NCBI RefSeq assembly: GCF_000002865.3 | Contig: NW_001865043.1 | Location: 956,872-1,020,871, forward strand | From: Monosiga brevicollis MX1 | Taxonomy: Eukaryota > Opisthokonta > Choanoflagellata > Craspedida > Salpingoecidae | Direction: 5' to 3' | DNA length: 64,000 nucleotides | Part shown: piece after piece, positions 910 to 49,945 of the stretch | Numbering within the stretch: the stretch's first letter is position 1 | Layout of the letters: each line of letters begins with the position of its first letter | The notes under the pieces: model-generated | Seen by the model: only the letters and a program-made list of their open reading frames with translations | What the model was told of the DNA's origin: nothing | Database searches by the model: none | Position numbers and translations under genes: made by a program

Positions 910-1254
910 TCTGCTGCTTTTGACTTTGGGCTGCCTCGTCGCTGGTCTTTGGCGGGTCGTAGCTCGGCTTGGTCGGCAGAGAGGGGTTAGTAAAAGTGGG
1001 TTGCCAGTTGGTCAGCAGACGGGTGGTGGTGGGCTGGCGAGGATTGGCTCAAAGGGTCAGAGTGTGGGGTGGTGCCTGCACTGTTGCGACGCTGGCTTGC
1101 TGCCGAGTCCGGCCGGCTGCTGGCGCTGCCTGGGCATCGTTCTCCTGGCTGCTTTTTGGGCTCGCCCAAGGCAGCCTAGGCACAGCTTGCCTCGACGCGC
1201 TCTACCTTGTTCCTTTCCAGCTGACAGTCAAGCATTCAAGGGGCACCGTCGAGC
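1..1254. other. No recognisable gene; low-complexity flank
   Basis: Open frames cross this stretch on both strands, but none shows a domain, and several depend on GA/CT-rich sequence. A GA-rich tract lies at about 360-485 and a long pure CT tract at 821-904. The end closest to 1255 should hold the 5' UTR and promoter of the PTP-like gene. I see no TATA box or other site I would defend. Confidence 0.5.
821..904. repeat. (CT)n microsatellite
   Basis: An uninterrupted CT run of about 42 units, roughly 350 bp upstream of the PTP-like start codon. It produces long Leu-Ser open frames on the + strand that are not genes. Confidence 0.98.
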
Positions 1255-4200
1255 ATGGAGCGCAAAACCAGCGTCTATCTGCCGCCTGTCTCGGCCATTC
1301 ACACAGACAAGATTCTCGAAAATGAGAAATGGATCATGACCCCCGACAACCCGACGTTGTTTCAAGAGATTCCTCTCGAGGCTGTTGACCTCACCAGCAT
1401 CCCTGCTGGCGTCCGCAACCACAAGTACAACCGCTATGCAGATGTCTTGCCCACGTATGTGTGCACGATTCTCACCTGCTCTAGCCCGTCTGTCGCTTCC
1501 AGCCGCCGCCTCATCCGGTTATCCTCTTGCTTTAGCCCGGCCACCCGTGTTCCGCTGGCCGAGTTGGACAGCGATCCCACCACAGCTTACATCAACGCCA
1601 ACTTTGTGCGGGGTGCTCACAACAACAAACGCAAATACATTGCCGTAAGCACCCCGCACCCCTTTAGACCGTGACCCCCGACACAAGAGCGTCGCGTGCG
1701 TTTAGCATTGTTGTGGTCACCCACCCTCACTCGTCCTGGTGTAAAACCATGTTGTCGCGCCATTGTGATTCCAGGCCATGGCCCCTTTGCCCGCAACCCT
1801 GCGAAGCTGGTGGCGCATGATTTGGCAAGAACAGGTGACCGCAATAGTCATGGCCACGCCCCTCAACGAAAATGGCACAGACCTCTGCTCCCGCTACTGG
1901 GCTCCGTCTCCTGTGAGTGGACGGCCAGAATTGTCCATTGTCTTCCTGATCGCTACGAGATCCGAATACAATGAGCCCTGAGTACGCCCCTCTTGGATCC
2001 ACTCTCACATGTGCATGCATCTCGGACATGGCGAGGATATAGGGTCAAAAGATCAAGTGCATGAATATGTTTGTCCGAACCATGGCCACCAGCGATGTCA
2101 AAGACAAGGTCAGGCGCCGCCTACAACCGCCCGCATCCTTTGCTTCGCAACCGTTGACATGTCCAGAAGCGCTGTCTGGCTTGGTGGATTGCGTCTGCCG
2201 CCTCAATTTGCGGAGTAACCCTCTTCCATGCCTGGCATCATCCCACAGGGCTACCTGCGCACCCTGCTCCAAATCGAGGCAGAGGATGGCGAGAAGCGAC
2301 AGCTGATGCACTTTTGGATGTACGATTGGAATCCCAGAAATCCCGACAGCCTACTCTACTGTCTCCGTGACATGCACCTGTAAGATGGATCGCCTTCTGC
2401 TTTTTGCCTGCCTGACATCGGGGGCTTGGCAGTCAGCACTCACCCGCATTGGCAGGCCACAGCGGCAGCCCTATCGTCGCTCCAACTCACTGCTTACCTT
2501 GGCTTTTCACAGGAGCGAAAAGCAGCTGGCCAAGGGCGGCCCCATATTGGTCCACGACAGCGCCGGTGTCGGCCGTGCCGGCGTTATCATTGCGACCGAC
2601 TTTGCAACCGAGCTCCTAGAGTCAACGGGCAAGGTACGCGTCGCTATTCCGTCCCCCTCCTGATCGTCGCCACCCTTCTCATCTCTCGTGTCCGTCTTTC
2701 CATCTTCCATCTCGCGCCATGCGCGTAGGCGGACACGCTTGGTATTGTACGCGAGTTGCGCCAGGATCGCATGGCTCTGGTCCAAACTCCGGAGCACTAT
2801 CTGCTTGTGCAGCAGGCCATTCGGCTTTTTGCTCGAACGGCCGGTGTGGCCTTGAGCGAGATTGAAGATATCCACACGCAGCCCGAGGGCGCGCCTGCAG
2901 CTCTGACAGACACCAGTGCTCGCTCTGGTGCCATCGAGCACATCTCCATGCAAGCCACAAAAAAAGTCAACAAGAAGAAAAAGAAAAAGCATCGCCTCAG
3001 CTTTCGTCGTCGCGATGGCGAAGATTCGAGCTCAGATGACTCGGACAACGAAGGCAGCGGTAAGAAGAAGGGTCGCAACAAAAACAAGGGCAACGCCCTG
3101 GCCGATAAGCTGCGCGGCCTGCGTCAAATTCACGAGGGCGATGATGATCTGGACAACAACGTGGTATGAATGCATTGCCCAGCTTCAATCCGGTCGCAAT
3201 ACATCACCACCCAGTGCCGTACTGCTCGCTGCGTGAGCCAGCGCCCCATTTCATCTTTGCTTCTGAATCCAATAGATCCGACAAACCGACGATCGCAAGC
3301 TGGACGATCCGAAGGTCAAACAAAAGTGGCAAGAGGAGCGGGAAAGCTTTGCCGCCAGCAAGCCCACCTCACCGGAGCCAGCGCCCGAAGCAGCGGCACC
3401 CTCCTCCATGTCTGCCAGCGTCCAAAGCAACGAGGTGGCCTCGAGCATTACACCTTCTCCGCCCACTTCTGCATCCGTGCTCAACGGCGCACCATCCACA
3501 AGCTCGCAGGACACCTCCCGTGCACCTAGTCAAAGCATGCCCCCACCCAGCTCACCGGTGCGCAAGAGCGCGCCTGTGTTGCGGCGGCTCTCCTCGGTAT
3601 GTGCCAGTGGGTGACCCTGTTAGCGGGTTTGGCTAATATCGTGACGTACCGGCAGGCATGGCTATCGCGGGGAGTGTTCGGGTGTTTGCTCCGGTCAACT
3701 CACAATCTCTACCTTCCTTGGTGCTCGTCCCGGATAGGCTCGGACTACCGAGCTGGAGCAGCAAATTGCCGAGCTCAAACGTGCAATTGCCTCAAAATCT
3801 GAATGGTTGCGCACGCTGCGAACCAAGCTGGAGTCGCAGCAGCACAAGGTTTCGTCATTACAGCTTGAGTTTGACCAGGCTAAACGACAGCTGAACACTG
3901 TGGAGCTGGGCAGACTGGCCGAGGTTGAGAAGCAAGTCGAGGACGAGCGTCGTCACGTCGTACTCCAGGTGGTTGGCGCACTCGATTTGCAAGGATTGAG
4001 CGAAGCCGAACAGGTGATCATGAGTATGGCCATGGCACCAACGCCCGCCTTCCGACACGTGACGGCAGCTCATCGTCTTGCAAAGGTGAGTGTGTTGCAT
4101 TTCAAAGACACGTGGCTTCTTGATTCAACATTTGTGTTCTTTTCTTGGCCGCTGCTCCGACATCTTATGCTGGTCCGACTTCTTGTGTGCTAGTCGTCAC

Positions 4201-4304
4201 AAACATCCGAGAACGAGGATGCCCAATCAACAGAGGCCTCGTTGCTCGCGGGCATTATGGCTGGCATGCCGAGCATGCGGGGTGACTCAGCGCCAGCCCT
4301 TTGA
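1255..4304 (+). CDS. Protein tyrosine phosphatase-like protein, predicted catalytically dead
   Basis: A multi-exon gene that reads as a classical PTP domain followed by a basic linker and a coiled-coil tail. Exon 1 (from ATG 1255) gives the KYNRYADVLPT motif; the next exon gives YINANFVRG (about 1580-1610); then comes a block like 'GPLPETxxDFWRM' (about 1776-1850); then LMHFWMYDWNPRNP (about 2303-2345) where the WPD loop should be; then the P-loop HDSAGVGRAG (about 2553-2582); then the LRQDRMALVQTPEHY motif (about 2755-2800). The nucleophilic Cys of HCSAGVGRTG is Asp (GAC at 2556-2558), and the WPD acid is also missing, so this is a pseudophosphatase by sequence. Downstream are a Lys-rich acidic-serine stretch (2960-3160), a Ser/Pro-rich exon and a coiled coil (about 3745-4085). 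The last exon ends at TGA 4302-4304. No transmembrane segment is seen, so it is probably cytoplasmic. Exon joins are by eye. Confidence 0.85.
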
Positions 4305-4924
4305 ATTTTGCTCAATGTGCTGCCGTTTTCGGCCTCGAGACTTAAACGCCCCTTCTTCGTTCCTTGACTCCGAGCTTGGGGAACGAGACGATTGCGTGAC
4401 CCCGATGTGCGGTCTACGCGCGATTGGTGCGTCTGCGCCATATCCGTCTGACTGTTGTGAAATGAACTGCAGGGCCCGTGCCAAAAATGGGTATATTTTG
4501 TTTGCCTTCCATCCGTCCTCGTCCCTTGACTCGCATCCAGGCGCATGACGTGTTTGTTTTTTGTTTTTTTAATTCTGTGTTTTTCTTTTTGTTTTTTTAT
4601 CTTCTTGTTTGTACCTGTCCGCGTGGCACAGCACGCCCGTGTTGGCGCCCCTCTTCGTGGCCCCTTCTCCTTTTTGACCTGTCCTGCTATACATGGACTG
4701 ACATGCGAATAAATAATTCAATCCAGTGTCTGCTCTGTCCACTTTGCTCAGTGCTTCTGACCCCCAATTCGAGCAAAAAGAACACGAAACATTTGTTGTC
4801 ATCATCCAATTGCAACGCTTTTTGTGTTGATGTTTTGTTGATGTTTTGCGATGTGCAAAAGTTGCGTGATCGATGAGGGATCGGACCTTGTTCCTCGCGA
4901 AGGAGCGAGCACGTCTCTGCGACA
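4305..4924. other. Intergenic, T-rich
   Basis: The 3' flank of the PTP-like gene and 5' flank of the beta-helix gene. It has T-rich patches (4550-4610) and one AATAAA-like hexamer near 4708. No gene is recognised. Confidence 0.5.
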
Positions 4925-7030
4925 ATGACCATGCCCTTGTGGGTGTTACTGGCCTCGCTGCTGTTGGTGGTAGGCAGAGGGGCCAGAGCGGAAAGTGTAC
5001 AGCGAGGGTGTGGGGTGGAGCGTGTTCGCATCTGTGGTGCGCACTGCGAGGCGGTCAGGTCGCTTCCGTGTGTGTTTGCAACCTGGTCCGACATGCGCGC
5101 AGCTCTAGGACGCAAGCCTCTGCGCCACACGGTTATTGAGTTTGGCCCTGGACTCCACTTTCTTAACAGCAGCAGTCTGGTACTGGGACTTGATGATGCC
5201 AACGTGAGCCTGGTGGGGGCAGGCCGGGAGGCTACTGTTGTCTCGGGTGGCGTGCTGCTAGACGAATGGGTCGATGCACCAGAGTGGCCCGGTTACTGGC
5301 AGGCCCGCCTCCCAGATAATGTTTCATACGTACGTCAGCTCTTTGTATACAACCAGACGAGAGCCGCAACACCTGGGCTTGCCTTTTCTCGTCGCTTCAC
5401 CGCGCGGTCGGCTGAGATGGTGTATAACCACACGAACATGAACGACCCCGAGCACTCCATCGTGCTCTTTCCGGGCCAGTTCAATGCTTCCTATCACAAT
5501 CCCGGTGACGTGCTAGTCTCGATCTATCACTGTTGGACTCTGACGACGCATCGAGTTCGTGCCTTTGATCCCACCAACCTCACATTGACTTTGCTTCAGG
5601 CTCCGCACGTGGATATTCCTCGCTGTGAGCATGCGAGTGGAAAACGTTTCTATGTTGAGGATGCGCGCGAATACCTGGCTCGCGTCCCCGGTCGTTTCTA
5701 CGTCGATCGTGAGGCGCGTATGATCTTGTATCACCCTCTGCCTTTGGAAGCGTCGCAGCGCTCCAAGTTTCAAGCCGTGATCGGTCAGAACATCACCTTG
5801 TTGCGTGGGGCCGGTGCAAGCGGTGTGCGAATAGCAAATCTCAGCTTGATGCATGGACAAGTGGATATGCTGGGTTATTTTGAAGGTGACTGCGACGCGC
5901 AGAGCGCCACTAATCTCAAGAGCGCAGCCGTCGTAGTCAACAACGGCAGCGACTGGAACATCACCAATGTGGCCATCGCCCACGTGGGAACTCATGGACT
6001 CTGGCTCAACGCGAGCGTGAGCAACGTTCTCGTCCAGGGTCTTCATACCTTTGACACGGCGGCAAGTGGTGTGCGCTTGGGTCACTATTCGGCTCATCCA
6101 GCAACGCGGGCCACGCAAGGAGTGATTCTCGAGGATTCCTTGCTAGAGACGGGGGGACAGGTTTATGTCATGGCCCCGGGCATGTTGCTGGTGGCCTGCC
6201 GTGCGTGCCGGGTGGCTTACAACACAATCCGAAACTTTTCCTATTCTGGCATTAGTACGGGATATGGGTTTAGCGAGGCGCCCGCCGACCTGGCTGACAC
6301 GGTCCTGTACCGAAATCATCTGCACAGCCTGGGGCAGGGTGTTCTCAGCGACATGGGGTGTGTTTACACCTGGGGTGGCGACCAAGCTGGACTTCGGGTG
6401 GATGGCAACGTGTGTCACGACGTGGTCAACTTTGATCCGGCCCTAGGTGGCTACGGTGGTTGGGGCATTTATACGGACCAGTCTTCTCGCAACGTGGTCA
6501 TTTGCAACAATCTGGTGTACGATACGGCGTCCAGCTGTGTGCACGAGCACGAAGCTACGGCGGTGTTGCTGTCCAACAATATACTGGTGCAAACAGGGCG
6601 GTGGGCTAACCCTGGCGCGGCTGCTTTGCGGGGTGCGCTCCCGGACCCCCGACGTGACATCTGGGCCAACTTTACGCTTACCACCAACGTGCTAGTGTCC
6701 GAGGCTGGCAATGCGAGCTCCTCAGGTCTCCTGTTTTATGCTGCTGCGGACTGGGCCGTGGCGTACAACAGCAGTGCTTACGACTCCAACCTCTATTTCG
6801 TGTCCGAGGCCAGTGGCCGTAACGCTTCAGCGCTTCGAGTGTTTCCAGGAGGGGTGACGTTGGCCACCTGGCAAGCTCAGGGTTACGACCGCCGTTCTCG
6901 TGAAGCTGATCCTTTATTTGCTGACCCAGCCGCCCGCAACTTTTCCTTGCTTCCGAACTCACCTGCGCTGGCACTCGGGTTCCAACCTGTGCCCTGGGAA
7001 CTTGCTGGGTGCTCGTGGCCCTCTTGTTAA
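4925..7030 (+). CDS. Secreted right-handed parallel beta-helix protein, intronless
   Basis: A single uninterrupted 701-codon frame. Residues 1-23 form a signal peptide (MTMPLWVLLASLLLVVGRG), so the product should be secreted or lysosomal. The body is built of short beta-helix turns, such as 'VLYRNHLHSLGQGVLSDMG' followed by CVYTWGG and GGWGIYTDQSS. The chain ends in the 'LLPNSPALALGFQPVPWEL' signature common at the end of carbohydrate-active beta-helix proteins. The layout (N-terminal region with a heirloom 'FYVDREARMILYHPLP' strand, then right-handed helix) resembles bacterial beta-helix glycoside hydrolases of the GH141 type. That assignment is tentative and I cannot identify the catalytic acids. 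More than ten N-glycosylation sequons are present. The absence of introns, when nearly every protein-coding neighbour has many, suggests horizontal acquisition or retroposition. Confidence 0.8.
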   Translation: MTMPLWVLLASLLLVVGRGARAESVQRGCGVERVRICGAHCEAVRSLPCVFATWSDMRAALGRKPLRHTVIEFGPGLHFLNSSSLVLGLDDANVSLVGAGREATVVSGGVLLDEWVDAPEWPGYWQARLPDNVSYVRQLFVYNQTRAATPGLAFSRRFTARSAEMVYNHTNMNDPEHSIVLFPGQFNASYHNPGDVLVSIYHCWTLTTHRVRAFDPTNLTLTLLQAPHVDIPRCEHASGKRFYVEDAREYLARVPGRFYVDREARMILYHPLPLEASQRSKFQAVIGQNITLLRGAGASGVRIANLSLMHGQVDMLGYFEGDCDAQSATNLKSAAVVVNNGSDWNITNVAIAHVGTHGLWLNASVSNVLVQGLHTFDTAASGVRLGHYSAHPATRATQGVILEDSLLETGGQVYVMAPGMLLVACRACRVAYNTIRNFSYSGISTGYGFSEAPADLADTVLYRNHLHSLGQGVLSDMGCVYTWGGDQAGLRVDGNVCHDVVNFDPALGGYGGWGIYTDQSSRNVVICNNLVYDTASSCVHEHEATAVLLSNNILVQTGRWANPGAAALRGALPDPRRDIWANFTLTTNVLVSEAGNASSSGLLFYAAADWAVAYNSSAYDSNLYFVSEASGRNASALRVFPGGVTLATWQAQGYDRRSREADPLFADPAARNFSLLPNSPALALGFQPVPWELAGCSWPSC

Positions 7031-18209: not shown

Positions 18210-20567
18210 TCACTCCTCGTCATCCAGGTCTCCCAATCGCGTTGACATGAGATTGCCGCGAAGCTCGCGCTGTGAGCAAAGAGAGAAGAAACAAACAAGA
18301 ACGTGATCAACAGCAACGCGTGAGCGTCGGCTCCTAGACTCTTTTGAACCAAACAGACTACAACCATCCTCTTCAACGCACCTCAAAGGATGTGGGCGAA
18401 AGCACAGAGAGGGAAGGCTCAAGCCAGGGTGCCGTCGAGCTGTCTCCACAAATGGAGCCCAAGCCCTATTATTTGAACAAAGTCCCACCATAAGGACGGA
18501 TGAGACAAATCCGAAAGACGCTGTCGCATCCAGGCATACACTCACTCGAGCTAGTGACTGGCGCGAATACAGCTTCTTGACTGGTGAAGCCTGCTTTGCC
18601 CGAGCAGCCTTGGCCTGCAGCTTGGATGAAGTCATGGGCTGTGCCTTCATGGGCGAAGAGACGGTCGACTCATTACGCAAGCTCAGAGGCACCCGCTTTG
18701 GAGTCTTGCCGGCGGCCGTGAGCGCCGTGTTACGTCGCTTAGCACTTGTGGGCGTGCGTGCGACCGCTTTGGTGACCCGACGCGGGGTCAGCGGTGTGGA
18801 GCCGTACAGCATCTCATGTTCTGTCTGGTTCTTGGCGCGTTGCCGACGTTGTTCAGCCTCCAGATGTTGCTTCTCCTGCTGGCGACGTCGCTCATCCTCC
18901 AAGGTCTCCAGATACGGGTTGCCGTTCACCTGCAGGAAAAGGATGCATTTTGTTTGACAATCGCTGTGATGAGAAAAAAGCCGCTGTACAACTGTCAAGA
19001 GCAAGGAGGAGTCATCCGCATTGCCAGCGAGGCAGAACATGCAGCGAAAGCGAACCAGGAAGACTTCGCCATGCTCATCCTCCCAGTCCTGAATGCGCCG
19101 TTCCGCTAGCTTTGCGCTCTTAGCCATACGATCCAAGCGAGCCAGTAGGCCACCGCGATTGCGTAGTCGATCCTCGTCGGTCGTAGCTGCCAGCTTTGTT
19201 CGATAGGACTCTATGACGTCGGCGGCCGCAAACAAATCCTTCTGGGATTGATATTGTTCCTGCAAATTGGCAATGGCTGCCTCCATTGCTCGGAGCACCT
19301 GTAATTGCCAAGCAACCACCACATTCAAGAAACCGTCAGCACACGCCAAAAACAACCCAGCTCACAACCTACGCACTGCAGATTGCGGGCGCCCTGTCCC
19401 GCGATCATGCAGCGAACGCAACACCACAGAATCAATGCGACCAATCCGTACCTCTTCACGCCGTTCCTCAGGGACATGGTGCCAAGCGTCATCGTCTTCA
19501 TTGGCTGCGTCGATTTGCAGCTCATCCTCGAGAAATTCCTGACGCTCAATCTCACCGACGAAACATTTGCGCCACCACTTACAAAGGGCTTGATAGCGCT
19601 TGGCCAGAACCACCGGGAGCTTGGCCCGCTGAATCTCGTCCAGCCCCAAGTTTGCCTCGCGGATGATGCGGAGGGAGTCACCGTGGGGGGGCGGGGTATG
19701 CGCCTTGGCTTCGCGTGCGGCAGCTGATGGGAGGCCCAGCTGCTTACACACGACACGGCGCGCGCTCATATCCACTTCAAGCTCGGCCCAGCGACGATGC
19801 AGGTTGACCCAGGCCAAATTCACCATTTCATCCAGCTGGTCCTTGATACGCTGGAGCTTGTCTTGCAGGTGGCGCAAGCGACCGATGTTTTCAACTGACA
19901 GGGGTAGTGCGGCCACGTTCTCAATCACTCCTCGCTCAAAGTCATCCTCGGGCTCGTATGCAAGCTCGTGCCAGAGGGCCTGAATGGATCCCACGGTAGG
20001 CGCCACGGCTGACTGCCGCTCCTCCAGCTCACGCTCGATTTCGTGGAGGCGAGATTTGAGGCGCTCTATGCAGGCCTGTGAGATGTCGTTGTCGGCACAG
20101 AGGGGCGCCTCCTCTGGGCTCAGATCCAGTGTTCTGGCCAGGCCTCCCATGCGTGTCTCGAGGAACGAGCGCTCCTCGAGTCGCTGAAATTTGATTTCTT
20201 CAAGCTCCTGTACGCGAGACTCGAGGTCAGCATCAAGGCGGAGCAGTGAGTATTCCGTGTCAACGGTTAGGAGGGGCTCTGCGTCTTCGAGCTGCAGCTC
20301 GGCGCGTAAACCTTGCAGCTTCATCCGATTCTCTGCGACGAGCTGCACGATGGCGTCACACTGTTTCTGCTCCTCGGCCGCGAGCTCATCCACCAGCTGC
20401 TGAATGTGGCCCACAACTTCATTTTGGCGCGCCAGCTGTTCATCTTCCTCCAGGCCCAGGCGGGTCCAGAGCTTGGCCAAGCGCTGCCATGTCGGCAGCA
20501 GCGCATCCTGCGCGCGCGTCATCAACGCTTCTGCCATGGCGCCTTTCTTCACCGATGCAGATTTCAA
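18210..20567 (-). CDS. PRC1: PRC1/Ase1/MAP65 family microtubule crosslinker
   Basis: Minus-strand gene. The first large exon (20567 to about 19440) is almost entirely alpha-helical coiled coil, with the family's opening layout 'LAKLWTRLGLEEDEQ', then VDELAAEEQKQCDAIVQLV, and a conserved central block with KYPVV-like 'AKLPVVLAKRYQALCKWW'. The second and third exons carry the microtubule-binding spectrin-like part (QSQKDLFAAADVIESY; GGLLARLDRMAKSAKLAERR; WEDEHGEVFLV) and then NPYLETLEDERRRQQEKQ. The basic, Ser/Thr-Pro-rich tail includes EMLYGSTPLTPRR, similar to the 'YGTTP' region of PRC1 and a likely CDK target. The stop is at 18210-18212. The family bundles antiparallel microtubules in the spindle midzone for cytokinesis. 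Met codons at 20567 and 20537 are both possible starts. Confidence 0.88.
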
Positions 20568-20647
20568 ATTGCGGCGGGAACTTGATATTGTGCGTTGAAA
20601 ATTACACTATGGCCAATCGCCTTCACAACCTGGAAAGGATGACTTTC

Positions 20648-31518: not shown

Positions 31519-32080
<562 letters not shown>

Positions 32081-35000
32081 ATGAGCCACACCAAGCTACC
32101 GCTGCGTCAGCCCGTACTGGGACCGGCACTTGATTCCAGCAGCAACCCGTTTGCTCAGGATCAAGGGCGCGCAGTCATGTGTACACGCCCACGCCTGTAC
32201 GTGGCCGCGCCTGCAGGACTTTGTTTGGAGCTCGTCGCAGACATCCATGCCAGTCAGGAGCAGGTGAGGTTGAGGTTCCCCGGCAGACCGGCCCACATGT
32301 CTAAAGGCGACCCGAATCTGCATGCCTTCTGTCACCCTTCCCCTCTGGCTCCTTTGTTACTTGCTTGAGTCTTGCAGCTGCTGCTGGACATTTGGCAGGC
32401 TGGCGAAGCAGCGTTGCGCGATCATGGTGCAGTCTTACCATACTGGCACGGCTGCCTCTCGCTCCTGGTTAGTATTGCGTGCCTCTTGAGTCTCAACTCA
32501 AGTCGATTTCAATTGCTTGTTATTGCCATCTCATCCACCACGCTTCATTACTTGACGTGTGGTGCCGCGCCCGCAAAACCCTGTTGCTCATGCCACGGCC
32601 CTTCTTGTAGGATGCCGAGGCGAAGCTGCGTGTTACACCCGGTGACAATGTTTTTCTCCTGCGACGCCACGAATCGTGCTGCGCCAAAGTGTTCCTCAGC
32701 CGTCGTCTCCATTCAAAAACGCAACACTTTGTTCTACAGTGGAGCCTTCAACAATCATCAAAGCCCGTGCCTCGAATTCATGTGGTCGGACATGATGCCG
32801 ACCAGAGCTTTGCAACCTTGGCTGGCCTCATTGCTCATTTCAAGAAGCACGATCTGGCCGGTAAGTGGGCATGGCTCTGCTCACATCATTGCGGATACCC
32901 TTCAGCTCCCACCGTGCCTATTGACCTGCTCTTCTCGGTCAACTCCAGCTCACTCTACTGGCTTCCCTTGTAAGGTACCCCCTTGGGCTCCGGACTAGAG
33001 GTAGACTATAGCAGCAGCAGCAGCAGCGGTAGCAATAACAATTACAGCAGCGATGACGGCAGTGGTGGCAAAGGCTTGTTGTACGATATCCTGCGTTTCT
33101 GTTGCTGTCCCGTCATCTCACTTGATACGCACGCTCGACTTCACCATGTGTTTTGAGTGCTTGCAGCAACTCGCTGGCTTTCGAGCAATTATTCATGGGT
33201 GAAACTGGGTTTCGGCACTTTCGGCTGACCATTCAAGCTCTGCGAGCAGGCGCATTGGCTGCGCTTCCCTTCAAAGCCAAGCATGAATCCCTTGCCACGG
33301 TAAGAAAAACGTCCTTGTCGCGCTGCAGCACCCTGGATCTTTGTCATGGCGAATTGGGGATGCACGTGCTCCTTTGCCGGGCTGTCCTCCTTTGCATTGA
33401 CCGTCTGCTTTCCCGTGTATGCACGTATCCTTCTCACACACGCCGATGCCGACGGAACTTGTGCTCGATCTCGGTGGCATCAGCTATTTCGTTGTGATGC
33501 CGTAGTGCCCTCGTGCCTGTTTGCCGACTGTACAAGTCGCTATCTATTTGCTTACACACAGTGGCAACGCCAAGCGGAGCCATTGCAGACTTTGATACAA
33601 CCCTTTCCTGCCGAATTCGATGATGGCGACCTCGAAGAGCTGCAAGATGCTCGACTTGATCTTGCCGCTTATGCTTCACAAATTGCGTAAGACTTGCCGG
33701 TCCCCGTTAAAGTCCTCGCTTTAGACCCCGGCGTCCCACGCACGAGTCCAATAGGTTCTTCACACGCTTTTGTTTTGTTCTCCCCCCGCCCCTGCCCCTG
33801 CCCCCGCCCTCCCTTCAAACAACAACAACAACAACAACAACACCAGTGCGCAACGCTCGTCAGCCGATTATGCCATTGAAGGGGATCGCTGTAGTCATGA
33901 TGCTCATGCACATTTGTCGGAGCGTTGTCGCAACGATACCATCACACTCTCCGTCAATTTGCGGCCCAACCAGTTGCAGGGTCGGCTTCGTACCATTGCC
34001 GTTCGCTTCCGTGCCTCTGTCAAGCGGGCACTGCAGGGCATCGTACCGCCTGAGCCCGCCCGCCGGCGTGAGCTTGGCCTCAACCCCAGTCTCGAACCTT
34101 CCGCGTACTGTCTCAAAGTGCGTATTCACCTCGCTCGAAGCGTGCCAGCAATTACGCACTGCGACCGCCCTTTCCCGCACGCAGATTTCCACACACGACA
34201 AGGCAGCGCCCAGGCTTACTCACCATGTCGCCGTACGCCACTCCTCGTGCCTGGCATGACGCGCAGGTACCGGGCCGGTTCGAGTACTTGCAGGGCGAGC
34301 ACCGTGTCATTGACTACTTCTACGTGCGGCGCTGTGTGCTGCGTCATATGCCGATCGAGTTGGAGCTGATGGTGCAAGCAGACATTCCTGGTCAATACCC
34401 ACGGCTAGAAATCAACACCTTGCCCCACGACGATGTCAGCGATCTGTTGTTGACGTTGTGCAGCCAGCACTCGACAAACCCCACCCACGATGGTGCGCAG
34501 TCTGTGCCATGTTCATCCACAGTCACCACACACCATCTACTCATGGCTCGATTCTCTTTCTCCTCGCACATTTGTGGGCCTTTCTCCCCCGTGCAGAGTT
34601 GAGTCAGGCAAGCGACCTGCAGGAGTTGCCGAGGCAAATTTCTTCCTGGAGTCTGGAGCAGGATCTGAGCATCAAACTGTTGCAGTTGGCCGGTATGTTA
34701 CGCGGTCAATTCTAAAATGGGATATTGGGTGTTCAAATGAGGTCTCATCTACTTTTTTCAATGCGTAGGGTTGCCAAAAGATCACCAACTTCGCATCAAA
34801 TTTACTCTGGCCCACGGTGATCAGAACTTGGCGCCAGAATACTTGCTCAACCTGTCGCGTGCTGAAGCAGCCTCATCCGATGTGCTGCTGCGCCCTCTTC
34901 ACCTGCCCATTCGCGTAAGACACTTCCACGTTTGAGCTTGATGTGCACGCGGGCGATCGTTTTGGTAAGAGATGGCAAGACCACTCGCATTTACATCTGA

Positions 35001-38000
35001 TGCCGTACATGTTAGATATGCGATCTACCGCTTGCCGCATGTTTGAGGGTGCACGTGTTTCGCATTATCAAGAAGGACGATGATAGCGAAAAGGCAGAGC
35101 TCACGGCGTTGGGCTGCATGTCTCTATTTGAGCATACGGCTGCCTTGCGGAGCGGTGTTCAGCCTGTTTCCCTTCACACCCAAAGCGTGGGCACCAACGT
35201 GAGTCTGTGTCGAGTCATATCTTTCAAGAGCCTTGTTAGCCACCCCAAGCTGCAGTGTGGCATCTTGTATTGGAGCTCAAACTTCCTGCTCCCATGTTTA
35301 GACGGCTGGCTATCTCCCAACTTTTGATGCAGAAAACCCGAGCTGCTTGTTGCTACAATTGCCGACGTTTCCTTGGCCGGTGCGATGCGAGTCATCGATA
35401 CAACTTTTGTACAGCCGCTGACACAAACTCAATCAGCCCCCATCCTCTCTATTTATGTTGCAGGTGCTATACCCTGGCGCCTTTGACGATTACATTGACT
35501 CGTCGGAGCTCTTGGTACGTTCAGAACCAGTCGTGGAAGGTATTTCACAGGCAGCTGTTGTCGAGTACACTCAAGTTTGCTTTGGGCTCCTGATTGATGG
35601 TCAATTATCCTGCAGGAGCAAGACCGGGCGAGCAGTGAGCGTCTCGAATCACACATCTACTATCGCGGCCAGCCTGTACGACAAACCCTCTAATCGTTTG
35701 CACAGAATGTGCCTGAAGCGTATGGACTCTAATCAGGCCTCATGGGGGATAGGACGTGCCGTTGATGCCAGAGGATGGTGACATGCCCGTGGATCTTCCC
35801 AGCGATGACCACAATACCACCTTGAGCGTACGCGAGGCTGTACCGGTCAGAGGGGTGGCTTGATCATCGCGCCTGTTCATTGCTTACCTTGTCTTGTCTC
35901 GCGTGACTCATTTCGCGTTCCAGGTACCCGGCGCGCTCTTGGGGCTTGTCAGTCGGCTGGCTAGTCGGCGGGACGGTATCAAGCTGAGTGATATTAAACA
36001 TAAGCGGAAGAAGTTCCGCAATGCCTTCGTGGGCCGAGACCTGGTACAGTGGCTGGAGGACAACCTGTTGGACGCTCCCAGCGAAAACGCTGTGCTGCTT
36101 GCACAACGTTTGTTGCGGTCGGTTTGATGCCGTCAGAATGAAACAGCCGCTTGTGCGTCAGCTCAGATTTGTGGTCAGCCGCTCAATATCGGAAGCTGTG
36201 CTTGGCTAGCGTAGACTTAAAGTGGTCGTAGCGGCTGTCGATCCCGCCCACACCCAGTTCGAGGAGCAGGACGTGTACCAATTTGGAGCCTTTTGCCGTG
36301 TTCGCAGTCGAACCATCGATGAGGATGGGCAAGAGGATTTGATGGTTAGTCTGCTGGTCACATGCTGGGAGAGAGGAGGGGATCATCTGGCAGGCTCTCA
36401 CGCTCCAGTTTGTGCAGCACCCACTGCACATGGCAGAAACACAGATGGCCATAGCCAATATACAAATGCAAGACAGCAAGCGGCTAGCACGGCTCCGTCA
36501 CCTAGACATCCTTGTGCCTCCCACGGATGGGGATCAGCGTCTGGTGCGTGTTTGGCCGTCTCGCGTCACTTGTTCTCTGCCTACTGTGAGGTTGCACATC
36601 CGTGTGGTGTAACAAGGGTACCAATCACCATCTTTGGTGACGTTGTCACAGTTGTTTCGCCGCCGCCACGAGTGCAGTCGATATCCACGATTGCTTCCCA
36701 AGTTCCTCCAGGCCATAGCATGGAATCAAAGCTGGCATGTGCGGGAGGCCTACCGGCTGATACCAGACTGGTTGGCCAACGGCAGTTCAACCAATGCATT
36801 GCAGCTGCTTCTCTATCACTTTGCAGACCCCTTTGTTCGGCGCGCGGCTGTGCAAGCACTGGCAACGATCGGTGACGATGACTTTGAGTCCTACCTTCTT
36901 CAACTCGTCCAGGTTTGTGCCAAGTTGCCGTCACCTGTTCAAATATGAGGGCCGGCCGCTGATGGAAACATTCCTCGCCTTGCAGGTGCTACAATTTGAA
37001 ATCTTCCATGATTCTGCGTTGGCACGCCTCTTACTCAAGCGCAGCTTAACCAACCGACGTGTGGGTCAAGCCTTATTTTGGCATTTGCGTGTTGAGCTTG
37101 ACAATCCCGCTCTGCGTCTACGCGCTGCCTTGCTTCTGGAGGCATACTGCCTGGCTGCAGGTACGACTTTAGGCCTCCAAGGAGTGGCATCGGGGCCCAG
37201 CCATCGGTCCAAAACATCGATGAGATGGAGTCATGGGAGCTGTGCTGGCCTGTTTTATCCTACTGATGTTTCAACGGCGTCCGTTTGGCAGGTGACATGG
37301 TGGGGGTGCTGTTGAACCAAGTCAATTCGTTGCATGCCCTGGATGAGGTGGCCACGGCAGCCGCCGACGGCAAACAAACGCAAATGCAACGATCAACTTT
37401 GCTGCAAGACCGCTTGCAAACCGTGCGTTGCCTGTCTCCTTGAACGTTGGGCATGCTTGGTCAAGCATCAAGGGGAGCCATGGCGACCAAACCCGTCTCA
37501 TCTTGGCCTTTGCCTCCTGCTGCAGAGTGACTTGCACTTTCCGCTAACTATGCCATTCAACGTGGGCATGGTGGCCAGCGGCATTCAACCGCTCAACTGC
37601 CGCGTAAGCTACGACAAAGCGGGTGCCCGGAGCTGACCCATCCGCTCTCACCTTCATCGCGCGTGCTTGCAGGTGATGGACTCGAAGAAGAAACCACTGT
37701 GGCTCGAGTTGCAGAACGCCTCTGCTCCTCGGGAAACGTTCAAGGTGTTGTACAAGCGCGGTGATGACATTCGTCAAGACATGCTGACGCTGCAGATGCT
37801 GCGTGTATGTTCTCGTTTGTGTGGGCGTGCTGTTCTCCCCCTCTCCTCCTCACCAGGTTTGGACGTATCTTTTAACTACCATCACCTGACCCGATTGCTG
37901 CTGGCCCACAGCTAATGCAACGCCTTTGGCACGAGGAGGGCCTGGACTTGCACCTCATCCCCTATGGTTGTGTTGCCACTTCAACGTGCGTGCTGATTTT

Positions 38001-38955
38001 GGTACTTACTCAGACTTTAACACGCTTGATTTCTGGTCGAATCCAAAACTGATGATCATTGATGCCGTGCTTTTGCCCTTGACAGCCTCTCGGGCCTGAT
38101 TGAGATTGTACCATACGCACGCACTGTTGCCAGCATTCAAAAAGCTGCAGGCGGATCTTTCTCGGCTTTTGCTGAGGAGCCCATCTTAGACTGGCTGCGC
38201 AGCGAGTGCTTGAATTCAGAGGAAATGTTACAAGCCGCCCGCAACAAATTCACTGTCAGCTGCGCTGGTTATTGCGTGGCCACGTATGTCTTGGGCATCG
38301 GTGATCGCCACAATGACAACATTTGTGTCACACCTTCCGGAGATTTCTTCCATATTGACTTTGGACACTTTTTGGGCAACATCAAGACCAAGTTTGGGGT
38401 CAAGCGGGAGCGGGCACCCTTTGTGCTCACGCCAGATTTTGTCTTTGTGATTGGCGGGCAAGGTAGGTCCTGTTTCTGCATGTTGTACTATGAAGGTCAT
38501 GGCATCACTTGCTTACGGGATGGTTCTGGCTGATGTTGCCACGGTTAGAGAGTCGTGAGTTTGACGGCTTTATCAAGATCTGCGTGCAAGCGTACTTAGT
38601 GCTTCGACGCCACGCTCAGCTGTTGATCTCCCTATTCGCTATGATGCTCAGCACGGGCATTCCCGAGGTGCGCGTCTTTGGTCTCCTGGGCATGTGGCAG
38701 CTTGAAAATGTCGCGTGATCCCCCACAAATTATGAGGGTCTAGCGCCTTACATGGTGCCGTGCTTGACGCTGGGGGCTTGGTATCTTCCATAGCTGCAAC
38801 ATGAAACCGACATTGCGTATCTGCGCCGGTCGTTGAATCTCGACGCGCCCAGCGAAGCCCAGGCGGCCGCGGATTTCAAGGAGCTCATTTACAGTTGCCT
38901 AAAATTGTCCTGGACGACACAAGTCAACTTTCTGATGCACAACCTGGCACATTGA
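32081..38955 (+). CDS. Class I phosphoinositide 3-kinase catalytic subunit with added SH2 and DEP domains
   Basis: Makes PI(3,4,5)P3-type lipids at the membrane. Exon 1 (32081-32263) and the start of exon 2 may hold an adaptor-binding-like segment. Exons 2-3 (about 32445-32851) read as an SH2 domain: [25 protein letters not shown] (Arg of FLVR kept) and [17 protein letters not shown]. Next come a Ras-binding region (about 33855-34400; [20 protein letters not shown]), a C2 domain (about 34610-35520; [17 protein letters not shown], then [14 protein letters not shown]), a DEP domain (about 35934-36290; [18 protein letters not shown] and [12 protein letters not shown]), the PIK helical domain (about 36650-37160; [14 protein letters not shown] and [24 protein letters not shown]), and the kinase (about 37660-38955; [14 protein letters not shown], catalytic [15 protein letters not shown]). 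TGA is at 38953-38955. Class I is judged from the RBD, C2 and kinase order. Kinase motifs are intact. The SH2 and DEP are unusual for this enzyme. Confidence 0.85.
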
Positions 38956-46733: not shown

Positions 46734-48017
46734 TTACTCGCGAGGGTCGATGAGCTTGAGGACCTTGCCGATGGCCAAGGTTTTGCCTTCGTCACGAAGT
46801 GTGAAGCGGCCCATATGAGGATGATCCTTGAAAGTTTCGATGCACACGGGCTCATTGCACGTCAACCGCACAATCGCCACATCACCCTGCTTGATGAAGC
46901 GAGGGCGACCCTTCTCCTTGTCAGGCTTGCCCGTCTTCTTGCTGACATGGCAGATGAGGCCCTTCAGAATCACTTCCTCCGTGGCCGAGTGAATGTGCAG
47001 CACGGCATTGAAACCTATTCAAACGCCAACAAAATCGGTGAAAAAACCAAAACCGAAGCCAAGCAAATGACCCAAGCGCAGGCGCCGCAGCCAAAGCGTG
47101 GTCAACACAGACCTGGGCAAATGATGGACTTCCACTCAAGAACCACGAGTTGCGCATCAAAGGTTGTGCAAACGTGGCAAGGCTTGGAGCGGGCGCATAG
47201 CACGTAGCCAGGGTTGACAGCATCCTCGGAAATGCCCTTGAGTTTCAGCTTGACGTTATCGCCAGACTGCGCCGAGTCGGACTCCTCGTCATCGACCAAG
47301 ATGCTATCAATCGAGACCTTGTTCTTGTTGGGGAATAGCGCGACAGTTTGGCCCTTGCGGACAAAACCAGACTGCACCTTGCCCATGACCATCGTACCCA
47401 TGTCCTGCACACGTTTGAGAAAAAAACAAAAAACAAACAAACCAGTAGCATGAGCAAAGAGGGTTGCCAACATTGGGGCGTGGTCTGCCTGCGTTTACGT
47501 ACGTTGTACTTGTCAGAGATGGGCATGCGGAACGGATGATCAAGCAAGCGAACGAGTTTGGGCAGCGAGTCAAGTAGGGGTATCAGCGCAGGGCCACTGC
47601 GTTGTCAACGCGCGAAGGACAACATAAAACATGGGCGTCGGGCAGCAGACACATGAGTTCAGAAGAATGAGCGAGCTGAATACAGGCAACAGATAAAGAG
47701 ATGCGTGGAAAAGGGCAGTCCAAGAAATCAAGCAAGAGGTGATTAACGGGTGGGGGCTTCTGCTACATGGAGATGGGGCGATGACCCGGTGCTTAGCGTG
47801 GACTCAGTGAGAGTCGACCACGTAAGCGATGGGCTCAGGCTTAGTCGAGTTATCAACAGTACGTTCAGGAAATAGATCCGTTAAGCTTGGCATCATGGCC
47901 AACCGGGATGCACCGCGACGCATATCCATCGTCAGCCCCCACCCTCTTTTGTTTGGTGGATCATGTCTCGTGCACAACGGCGCCGGCGAGTAGAGAAGAA
48001 CCAACGAAACAAAAGCA

Positions 48018-48069
<52 letters not shown>

Positions 48070-49945
48070 ATTGCCCGCGAAATGCGAAGGAGACGCATGT
48101 AAGATACTTACGTGTACCAGTCGCAAGTACCCTTGGGGGCGGGTTCGGTCAGGTTGACACCGACAAAGCCAGAGACAGGCAGGAAATAAACTTCTGCTCA
48201 CATCAGTTTCAGCACGGCAAAATGAATGAATCCCTCGTAGGCAAAAAAAAAAAAAAAACAAAAAACAAAAAAACAAAAAACACAAACACGATATCATGAG
48301 GGTAGAACGAAATGTCGTACCGTCCTTCTTGAAACCACACTGCTTCAGGAAAGGGTTGAGTTTGTCCTTGCACTCGTTATAACGTTCAACATCCCATTCA
48401 ACTGTCGGGTCGTCCATCTTGTTGATAACAACAATGAGGTAATGCACACCAGCAGTCTTGACCAGCATGGCATGCTCGCGCGTCTGGCCTCCACGCTCGA
48501 AACCGGTTTCAAACTCGCCCTTGCGCGCGCTAATCACCTACAAGAAGATGATCCGAACGGATAACCACGCAGCAATGAGCTCCTTGCATAATTCATACAA
48601 CTCGAGAGCGAGGGAATTTTTTTTTAAAAAAAAAGAAAAAGAAAAAAGAAGAAGAAGAAGAGAAAAAAAAAAAAAAACGGACCAAAACAGCGACATCTGC
48701 CTGAGCTGCACCACTGATCATGTTGGGCACGAAGCTCTTGTGACCAGGTGCGTCAATGACAGTAAAGTGCTTGTTCTCCGTTGTAAAATGGCCTTGACCG
48801 CACTGTCAAGTAGAGGACAGGACAGAAAAGGTCATGGTAAGTGAGATGATGCCGCAATGTGTCGGATTTTGACACGAATCAAACAAAAGGACGGAAGACC
48901 ACAGCATCACAAGAAAAAGAAGAAAGAAAATCAATAGAAAAAAGAACTGCTGAGTGAAGCGAACCTCAACAGTCTTGCCCTTGGCGCGCTCCTCTTCGTT
49001 TGTGTCCATGGCCCAGGAAAGATACCAGCTCTCGCGATTTTTCTCGCGGGATTCACGTTCGTACTTTTCGAGAGTACGCTTGTCAACGTTGCCCGTCAAA
49101 AACCTGAATAAAAATGGGGCCGACACGTGTGGTCAACTTGTACAATCGGGCAATGGGCACACGCTTCCAAGCTTCTTTCCAAGCCAAGGTTCTCCAGGCA
49201 GTGGTACGTACATGAGCTGACCACCAATGGTTGACTTGCCAGCATCGACGTGGCCAATGAAGACAATGTTGAGGTGCTCGCGTTTGTCCAGAATGTCGAG
49301 GGGAATCTCAGTTGTGTCATCATCATCATCGTCATCATCGTCTTCCTCAGTCGGCGCGGCTGCAGCTGCGCTTGCCTTGGTCTCTGTGTTCTTCTTGGAT
49401 GTGTCCCCCTTGGTAGTGTCCTCCTTGGGTGCTTCTTCCGCCTTGGGGGTTTCTTCCGCCTTGGGGGCCTCTGCCTTTGCTGTTTCAGTTACTTCTTCTT
49501 TCGTGGCTACATTCAATAACATTCAGCTGTGAGGACCAAAACATTTGCAACGAGAAAATAACATTCACAGTTGATAGAATGAGGTTGTACCTTGAGCTTC
49601 CCAGTCCTCTGTTTCTTCAACTGGTTCAGGCTTGGCTGCTGGGGCCGGTGCAGGCACGGGGGCCTCGACAGCTGCCGGGGCTGGTGCTGGGGCCGCCGGC
49701 GTGAAGGCGGGCGCACTCCATTGTTGGCCAGGCACAAACGCCTATGAAGAAACAAAGGATGACGGAAGATTGATCAGCCATGAATGAAACACTTCAGCGT
49801 TGTCTTGCGTGGAGGTAAAATGGAAGGCGCAGCCTACCGGTGCGTTGAAGTTTGGCACAAACTCGGCGGCGCCAACGTTGAACCGAGGAGCCGAGCCCCC
49901 GCCCTGCTGGTTCACTTGCTGGTTCCAGTTCTGAAAGTCTCCCAT
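46734..49945 (-). CDS. GSPT1: Eukaryotic release factor 3 (eRF3/GSPT1/Sup35 type GTPase)
   Basis: The translation-termination GTPase partner of eRF1. The start at ATG 49945 gives [16 protein letters not shown], a short Gln/Asn-rich opening, and then a PAM2-like motif, [13 protein letters not shown], the poly(A)-binding-protein contact. An Ala/Pro-rich exon, a Glu/Lys-rich exon and a run of nine Asp precede the G domain. G1 is [10 protein letters not shown] (about 49265-49235); switch I follows ([11 protein letters not shown]); G3 is DAPGH (about 48755); G4 is NKMD (about 48420). Domain II starts [16 protein letters not shown] and continues [18 protein letters not shown]; domain III gives [27 protein letters not shown] and [20 protein letters not shown], ending at TAA 46734-46736. 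The C-terminal pattern and the N-terminal PAM2 separate it from EF-1alpha and HBS1. One intron (about 47600-48115) contains a run of roughly 48 A. Confidence 0.93.
48020..48067. repeat. Long poly(A) tract in an eRF3 intron
   Basis: About 48 consecutive A on the + strand (poly-T in the transcript sense), with further A-rich runs at 48243-48283 and 48627-48677 in neighbouring introns. In the transcript these would be strong pyrimidine tracts. Confidence 0.95.

Follow-up and report, generated by a model that had tools for sequence, protein, structure and literature searches.

The window, meaning the whole stretch of 64,000 nucleotides of Monosiga brevicollis DNA that was analysed, carries a class I PI3K gene on the plus strand between positions 32081 and 38955, for which we infer 27 exons. 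The gene model was built from reading frames and splice sites between these two positions and yields a single open frame of 1356 amino acids with its stop at 38955; all 26 introns were picked as GT-AG by choice, so the GT-AG borders give no independent support to the model. The protein scanned with Pfam uses the exon 4 donor at 33078, and the donor at 33081, which scores better, would add one linker residue to give 1357 amino acids. One acceptor of the gene scores poorly (-3.2, with a matrix from 24 introns of the same gene). Exon 1 (32081..32263, plus strand) starts at the first ATG downstream of an in-frame stop and encodes an N-terminal stretch of 61 amino acids; residues 1-99 carry no Pfam family in the scan of the spliced protein. 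A short upstream frame at window positions 32055-32084 (ATGATGGTG...TGA), noticed by eye, overlaps the PI3K start codon. Elsewhere in the window lie an open frame of 717 amino acids with a right-handed beta-helix match (4877-7027, plus strand; 6.8e-9), a MAP65/ASE1-family microtubule protein split over two open segments (18213-20606, minus strand; 2.6e-10 and 2.6e-24) and a piece of an elongation-factor GTPase (47935-48537, minus strand; PF00009, 1.5e-8).

On the spliced protein, Pfam gives the order SH2, PI3K_rbd, PI3K_C2, DEP, PI3Ka and PI3_PI4_kinase from the N- to the C-terminus, and every domain passes its cut-off with the exception of SH2 (residues 83-168). The Ras-binding domain (34091..34377, two exons, residues 377-422, 5.8e-6) is recognisable in its C-terminal half, since the match covers positions 59-104 of the 106 of the profile only. 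It is followed on the same plus strand by the C2 domain match (34783..35186, two exons, residues 498-598, 1.7e-6), DEP (residues 714-784, 1.6e-10), the PIK helical domain (36460..37159, residues 827-999, 1.1e-39) and the PI3/PI4 kinase domain (37739..38799, residues 1092-1305, 7.8e-57), which contains GDRHNDN and a 19-residue activation loop. The Ras-binding, C2, helical and kinase domains thus stand in the class I PI3K order, all four above cut-off. The original prediction had placed an SH2-like domain before the Ras-binding region and a DEP domain between C2 and the helical domain; both placements agree with the Pfam order, and the five other profiles match as expected, while the SH2 profile falls below its cut-off. 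Between the SH2 exons and the Ras-binding domain, exons 5 and 6 (33167..33686, plus strand) encode a linker, in which an 11-residue stretch of exon 6 is set by hhalign onto the segment that follows the adaptor-binding domain (ABD) in p110, a non-significant match (probability 0.07).

The assignment to class I rests on the ranking of PDB matches, the activation loop and sequence identity, and it agrees with what had been proposed. A query of 711 amino acids, running from the Ras-binding domain onward with the DEP region removed, matched 129 PDB sequences at 1e-5. The best 60 of the 129 are p110 alpha, beta, gamma or delta, as judged from chain name or entry, and the other 69 may include class II and class III; among these best 60, p110 beta reaches 450 bits, delta and gamma about 437 and alpha about 418. 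The activation loop resembles those of p110 beta and delta and is unlike the loops of the class II (DFGRFLNNAQKFGPISRDR) and class III (DYGFILGRDPKPMPPPMK) genes elsewhere in the genome; compared with p110 beta, p110 delta and the three paralogues, it is basic and of class I type, and the catalytic motifs are intact. Identity is 45.8% to p110 beta, 40.6% to the ABD-bearing p110 of the same genome and 37.9% to its class II enzyme. An unrooted tree of five sequences, from which p110 gamma was left out and which cannot separate class IA from IB, pairs the protein with the class II paralogue (support 0.928), a position that fits a deep class I branch without proving it.

The DEP domain (35975..36284, plus strand) is divided between two exons, 35924-36117 and 36215-36344, the first of which runs on into the second. 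Its match spans residues 714-784 and the full profile (1-72 of 72) at 41.2 bits, above the curated cut-off of 32.7, and the E-value of the whole-protein search improves to 7.4e-12 when the domain is searched on its own. In the PDB, DEP is carried by name in 17 of the 20 chains found up to E 10, the best being DEPTOR (4.1e-6); the remaining three are TDP-43. The genome as a whole gives 16 DEP matches at 0.01, 12 of them above cut-off, and the exon of the window is included. As the intron lies inside the domain, and C2 and helical exons flank it, a separate gene for DEP is hard to sustain. The DEP domain that had been read from 35934 onward is therefore borne out, and we consider its identification within the predicted PI3K chain solid.

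The evidence for SH2 is of a different kind. Exon 2 (32378-32467) and exon 3 (32611-32860, for which the end had been given as 32851) join in phase, and the exon positions claimed for both SH2 and DEP were found in place. The domain begins at the end of exon 2 (residues 83-91, 32441..32467, plus strand) and has its main part, with FLLR and LIAHFKK, in exon 3 (residues 92-168, 32611..32841, plus strand). In the whole spliced protein the Pfam match has an E-value of 0.16 (12.5 bits); for the two exons alone it is 0.0024 and 18.4 bits over the full profile (1-77 of 77), short of the curated cut-off of 21. A Pfam SH2 scan of the 39.5 Mb genome returned 114 matches, with the SH2 exon of the PI3K absent from them. 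A second weak Pfam match over the same region is to DUF7063 (16.6 bits, cut-off 27).

A profile built on SH2 domains from elsewhere in the genome (31 excised out of the 114 available, one of these discarded for stops, 30 used) scored the joined exons at 23.3 bits, above chance, as the highest of 20,000 shuffles (17,523 reported) reached 9.7. With this profile exon 3 alone scores 21.9 bits and exon 2 alone -1.8, which locates the SH2 evidence in exon 3, with little gained from the join. When the 1,616 stop-to-stop segments of at least 25 amino acids in the window are ranked, the SH2 exon comes first with 20.3 bits, the runner-up having 7.3. Aligned by hhalign with the SH2 profile, the region reaches a probability of 93.8 (E 1.7e-7, 74 of 74 columns); the 30-sequence profile raises this to 95.2, and none of 100 shuffles exceeds 3.6. 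A phmmer search of the PDB up to E 10 found 36 chains, of which 34 are SH2 chains (best ZAP-70, 0.005) and two are not, namely a plant transcription factor and an antibody light chain; the 34 comprise 31 identified by molecule name, two 'Clamp' chains that we take to be SH2 chains, and 2rvf. The last was identified through PMC5043372. This chain, the SH2 of Monosiga brevicollis crka1, gave 27 matches as a query against the genome, the best at 51% identity; introns within that gene might conceal a closer match, though nearly identical fragments should then appear. The SH2-like domain of the original prediction is thereby upheld, as a divergent member below the Pfam cut-off.

Seven positions vary little or not at all among 20 SH2 domains of the genome; the PI3K domain keeps five of them, and together with the profile scores this makes an SH2 fold of residues 83-168 likely and phosphotyrosine binding putative. 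The two substitutions are Arg8 to Leu, presumably at the alpha-A2 position, and Gly23 to Asn; the FLVR arginine and the later conserved His are retained, and the residue two after this His, which we assume to be beta-D6, is Val. The loss of Arg8 and of the invariant Gly23, together with this Val, could mean that the single polypeptide carries a pseudo-SH2 that binds no phosphotyrosine and acts as a structural or autoinhibitory N-terminal cap, leaving DEP as the real recruiter; with FLVR arginine and conserved His both retained, we regard such a loss of function as possible, though less likely than not. That the region might instead be a degenerate adaptor-binding domain misread as SH2 was suggested by eye from a 10-residue N-terminal stretch followed by a helix, which resembles the start of an ABD. 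However, PF02192, the N-terminal domain that marks class IA, has no match on the spliced protein at E 10, where the paralogue used as a control gives 8.9e-10, and hhalign with an ABD profile of two sequences only has a probability of 0.07, on residues 260-287 outside the SH2, as against the 93.8 of the SH2 profile. On these results the ABD reading of the N-terminus was rejected, and we rate it as very improbable.

Whether the SH2 exons and the kinase part belong to one gene depends on the junction at 32861..33166 (plus strand). The donor at 32861 (CCGGTAAGT) is strong: left out of the scoring matrix, it scores 10.4, compared with 3.5-9.9 for 24 other donors of the gene. The best downstream acceptor is 33167 (6.1), and a direct splice from exon 3 to it was rejected as it breaks the frame, such that an extra exon is needed. 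The candidate exon 4, at 32975-33080, would encode a Ser/Asn/Gly-rich linker and has an acceptor of 3.1, a donor of 4.6 and a low codon score (0.113 per codon, compared with 0.171-0.272 for exons 1-3, 0.233 for exon 5, 0.439 for exon 6, 0.325 for the later gene and 0.017 for a single wrong-frame control). Enumeration gave 22 frame-keeping models with one exon and 212 with two, the latter counted only if their summed score exceeded 8; the best two, with exon 4 at 32975-33080 or at 32906-32969, tie at 23.1. With so many models keeping the frame, an open frame across 32861-33166 proves little. The RNA fold of this interval showed nothing unusual (z 0.51). All this leaves room for two genes, a small SH2 protein encoded by exons 1-3, which would end in a last exon of its own or by read-through to the stop after 32970, placed closely before a DEP-bearing class I PI3K that starts in exon 5. 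The junction is the sole place of the model that calls for an extra weak exon, the frame of exon 3 is open as far as the stop at 32971-32973, and an ATG at 33196 in exon 5, seen by eye and in frame with the kinase part, could be a separate PI3K start. Against this arrangement, the SH2 exon is followed by the strongest donor that the gene has, which argues that exon 3 is spliced onward, and the 306 bases from 32860 to 33167 offer little room for a terminator, a promoter and a leader and come close to the longest other intron of the gene (262 bases). We find two genes rather unlikely, and one gene clearly the more likely arrangement. The observation of a PI3K with SH2 and DEP is confirmed, with SH2 and kinase placed on one mRNA by inference from the sequence.

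Our preferred reading, which we hold with moderate confidence, is that a single polypeptide forms a class I PI3K in which the ABD is absent, an SH2 takes its place and a DEP domain is inserted in the linker between C2 and the helical domain. Such an enzyme would most likely need no adaptor, be regulated in cis and make PI(3,4,5)P3 at the plasma membrane with no partner of the p85 type. Its SH2 would bind to phosphotyrosine proteins; alternatively, if its pocket is too eroded, it would dock on the core of its own enzyme as a built-in brake, in cis, as the SH2 domains of p85 act on p110 in trans. The DEP, which is basic (KHKRKKF), would anchor the enzyme or set its orientation at a receptor or an acidic membrane, or it may touch the enzyme core instead; a further input would come from Ras through the Ras-binding domain. 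The Ras input, the contact of DEP with the membrane, that of SH2 with phosphotyrosine and the regulation in cis are all predicted from domain content. A bolder proposal, which we put forward tentatively, is a self-contained switch from receptor to PIP3, in which the catalytic chain has taken up both the SH2 function of p85 and a DEP like that of DEPTOR; it is equally tentative that this one protein would read phosphotyrosine, Ras and membrane without an adaptor.

The other PI3Ks of the genome bear on how far this independence of p85 may be extended. PI3Ka matches occur in four genes: that of the window and those on contigs C51, C35 and C53. The C51 gene (L029, C51:449000-458000) encodes a p110 with PF02192 at 8.9e-10, a Ras-binding domain and C2. 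The C35 gene (L030, C35:540000-548000, frame 1006-4584) is a class II PI3K in which three SH3 stretches separate PI3K_C2 from the helical domain (the positions of two of them set by eye) and a PX follows further on, and the C53 gene is class III by its activation loop. A p85-type iSH2 gave four matches in the genome, none above cut-off, in a search that was positive in 8 of 14 control genomes, and no SH2 match of the genome scan adjoins these four; an exon-wise PF02192 search missed the C51 ABD, so that absence in exon-wise searches, iSH2 included, is weak evidence. The genome, in which no iSH2 passed the cut-off, holds an ABD-bearing p110 in L029. Without a detectable ABD, the PI3K of the window would have no known way to hold p85. 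The suggestion that p85 is dispensable nevertheless goes too far, because another gene encodes an ABD-bearing p110.

In the literature as covered by titles and abstract openings, with subscription papers mostly outside, no catalytic chain of a PI3K was found to carry SH2 or DEP, and the part consulted of a survey of 1055 PI3K homologues (PMC4617754) names neither SH2 nor DEP in any catalytic subunit. The order SH2-RBD-C2-DEP-helical-kinase is therefore not previously reported in the PI3K literature so covered. The same part of the survey describes, in Choanoflagellida, class IA catalytic subunits and p85 homologues without a p110-binding domain, a situation called puzzling there (PMC4617754). 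If true, the self-contained switch may show one route by which a class I PI3K is wired to tyrosine kinases, one that concerns lineages whose p85 homologues are without the p110-binding segment (PMC4617754). The linker between C2 and the helical domain seems to tolerate whole regulatory domains, a DEP in the window gene and three SH3 in the class II gene. A p85 alpha and p110 alpha single chain, which we take to be engineered, exists in the PDB (4ykn); a catalytic chain that itself bears an SH2 would be nature's counterpart to such p85-p110 single chains, and it would test whether an SH2 can act as a restraint in cis.

In animals, class IA PI3K is brought to phosphotyrosine by p85. With class IA p110/p85 the window PI3K shares the order of Ras-binding, C2, helical and kinase domains, the class I activation loop and an SH2 regulatory module; unlike it, the window PI3K has a single SH2 in the catalytic chain itself, an added DEP, no detected ABD and no iSH2. 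In the p110 beta/p85 beta complex, as described in the part consulted of PMC3670040, the catalytic subunit is held back by each of nSH2, cSH2 and iSH2; in p110/p85 complexes the nSH2 touches the C2, helical and kinase domains as a brake that phosphopeptide relieves (PMC3670040). A missing p85-binding domain is a mark of class IB homologues according to the text consulted of PMC4617754, and the window PI3K resembles p110 gamma and the protist homologues in being class I without this domain, whereas it adds SH2 and DEP to the p110 gamma type. L030, the class II enzyme, likewise has extra modules in the C2-helical linker, yet these are SH3 and not DEP, and it differs in its class II activation loop and its PX. 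DEPTOR, whose DEP is the nearest in the PDB by sequence, acts in trans on mTOR, a kinase of the PI3K superfamily, with a pair of DEP domains that binds the FAT domain of mTOR (as given in the part consulted of PMC7619004); the DEP of the window PI3K, by contrast, is single, in cis and in a lipid kinase. Control that elsewhere runs between proteins may here run within one, as the SH2 and DEP regulators that work in trans in p110/p85 and DEPTOR/mTOR would sit in cis in the window PI3K.
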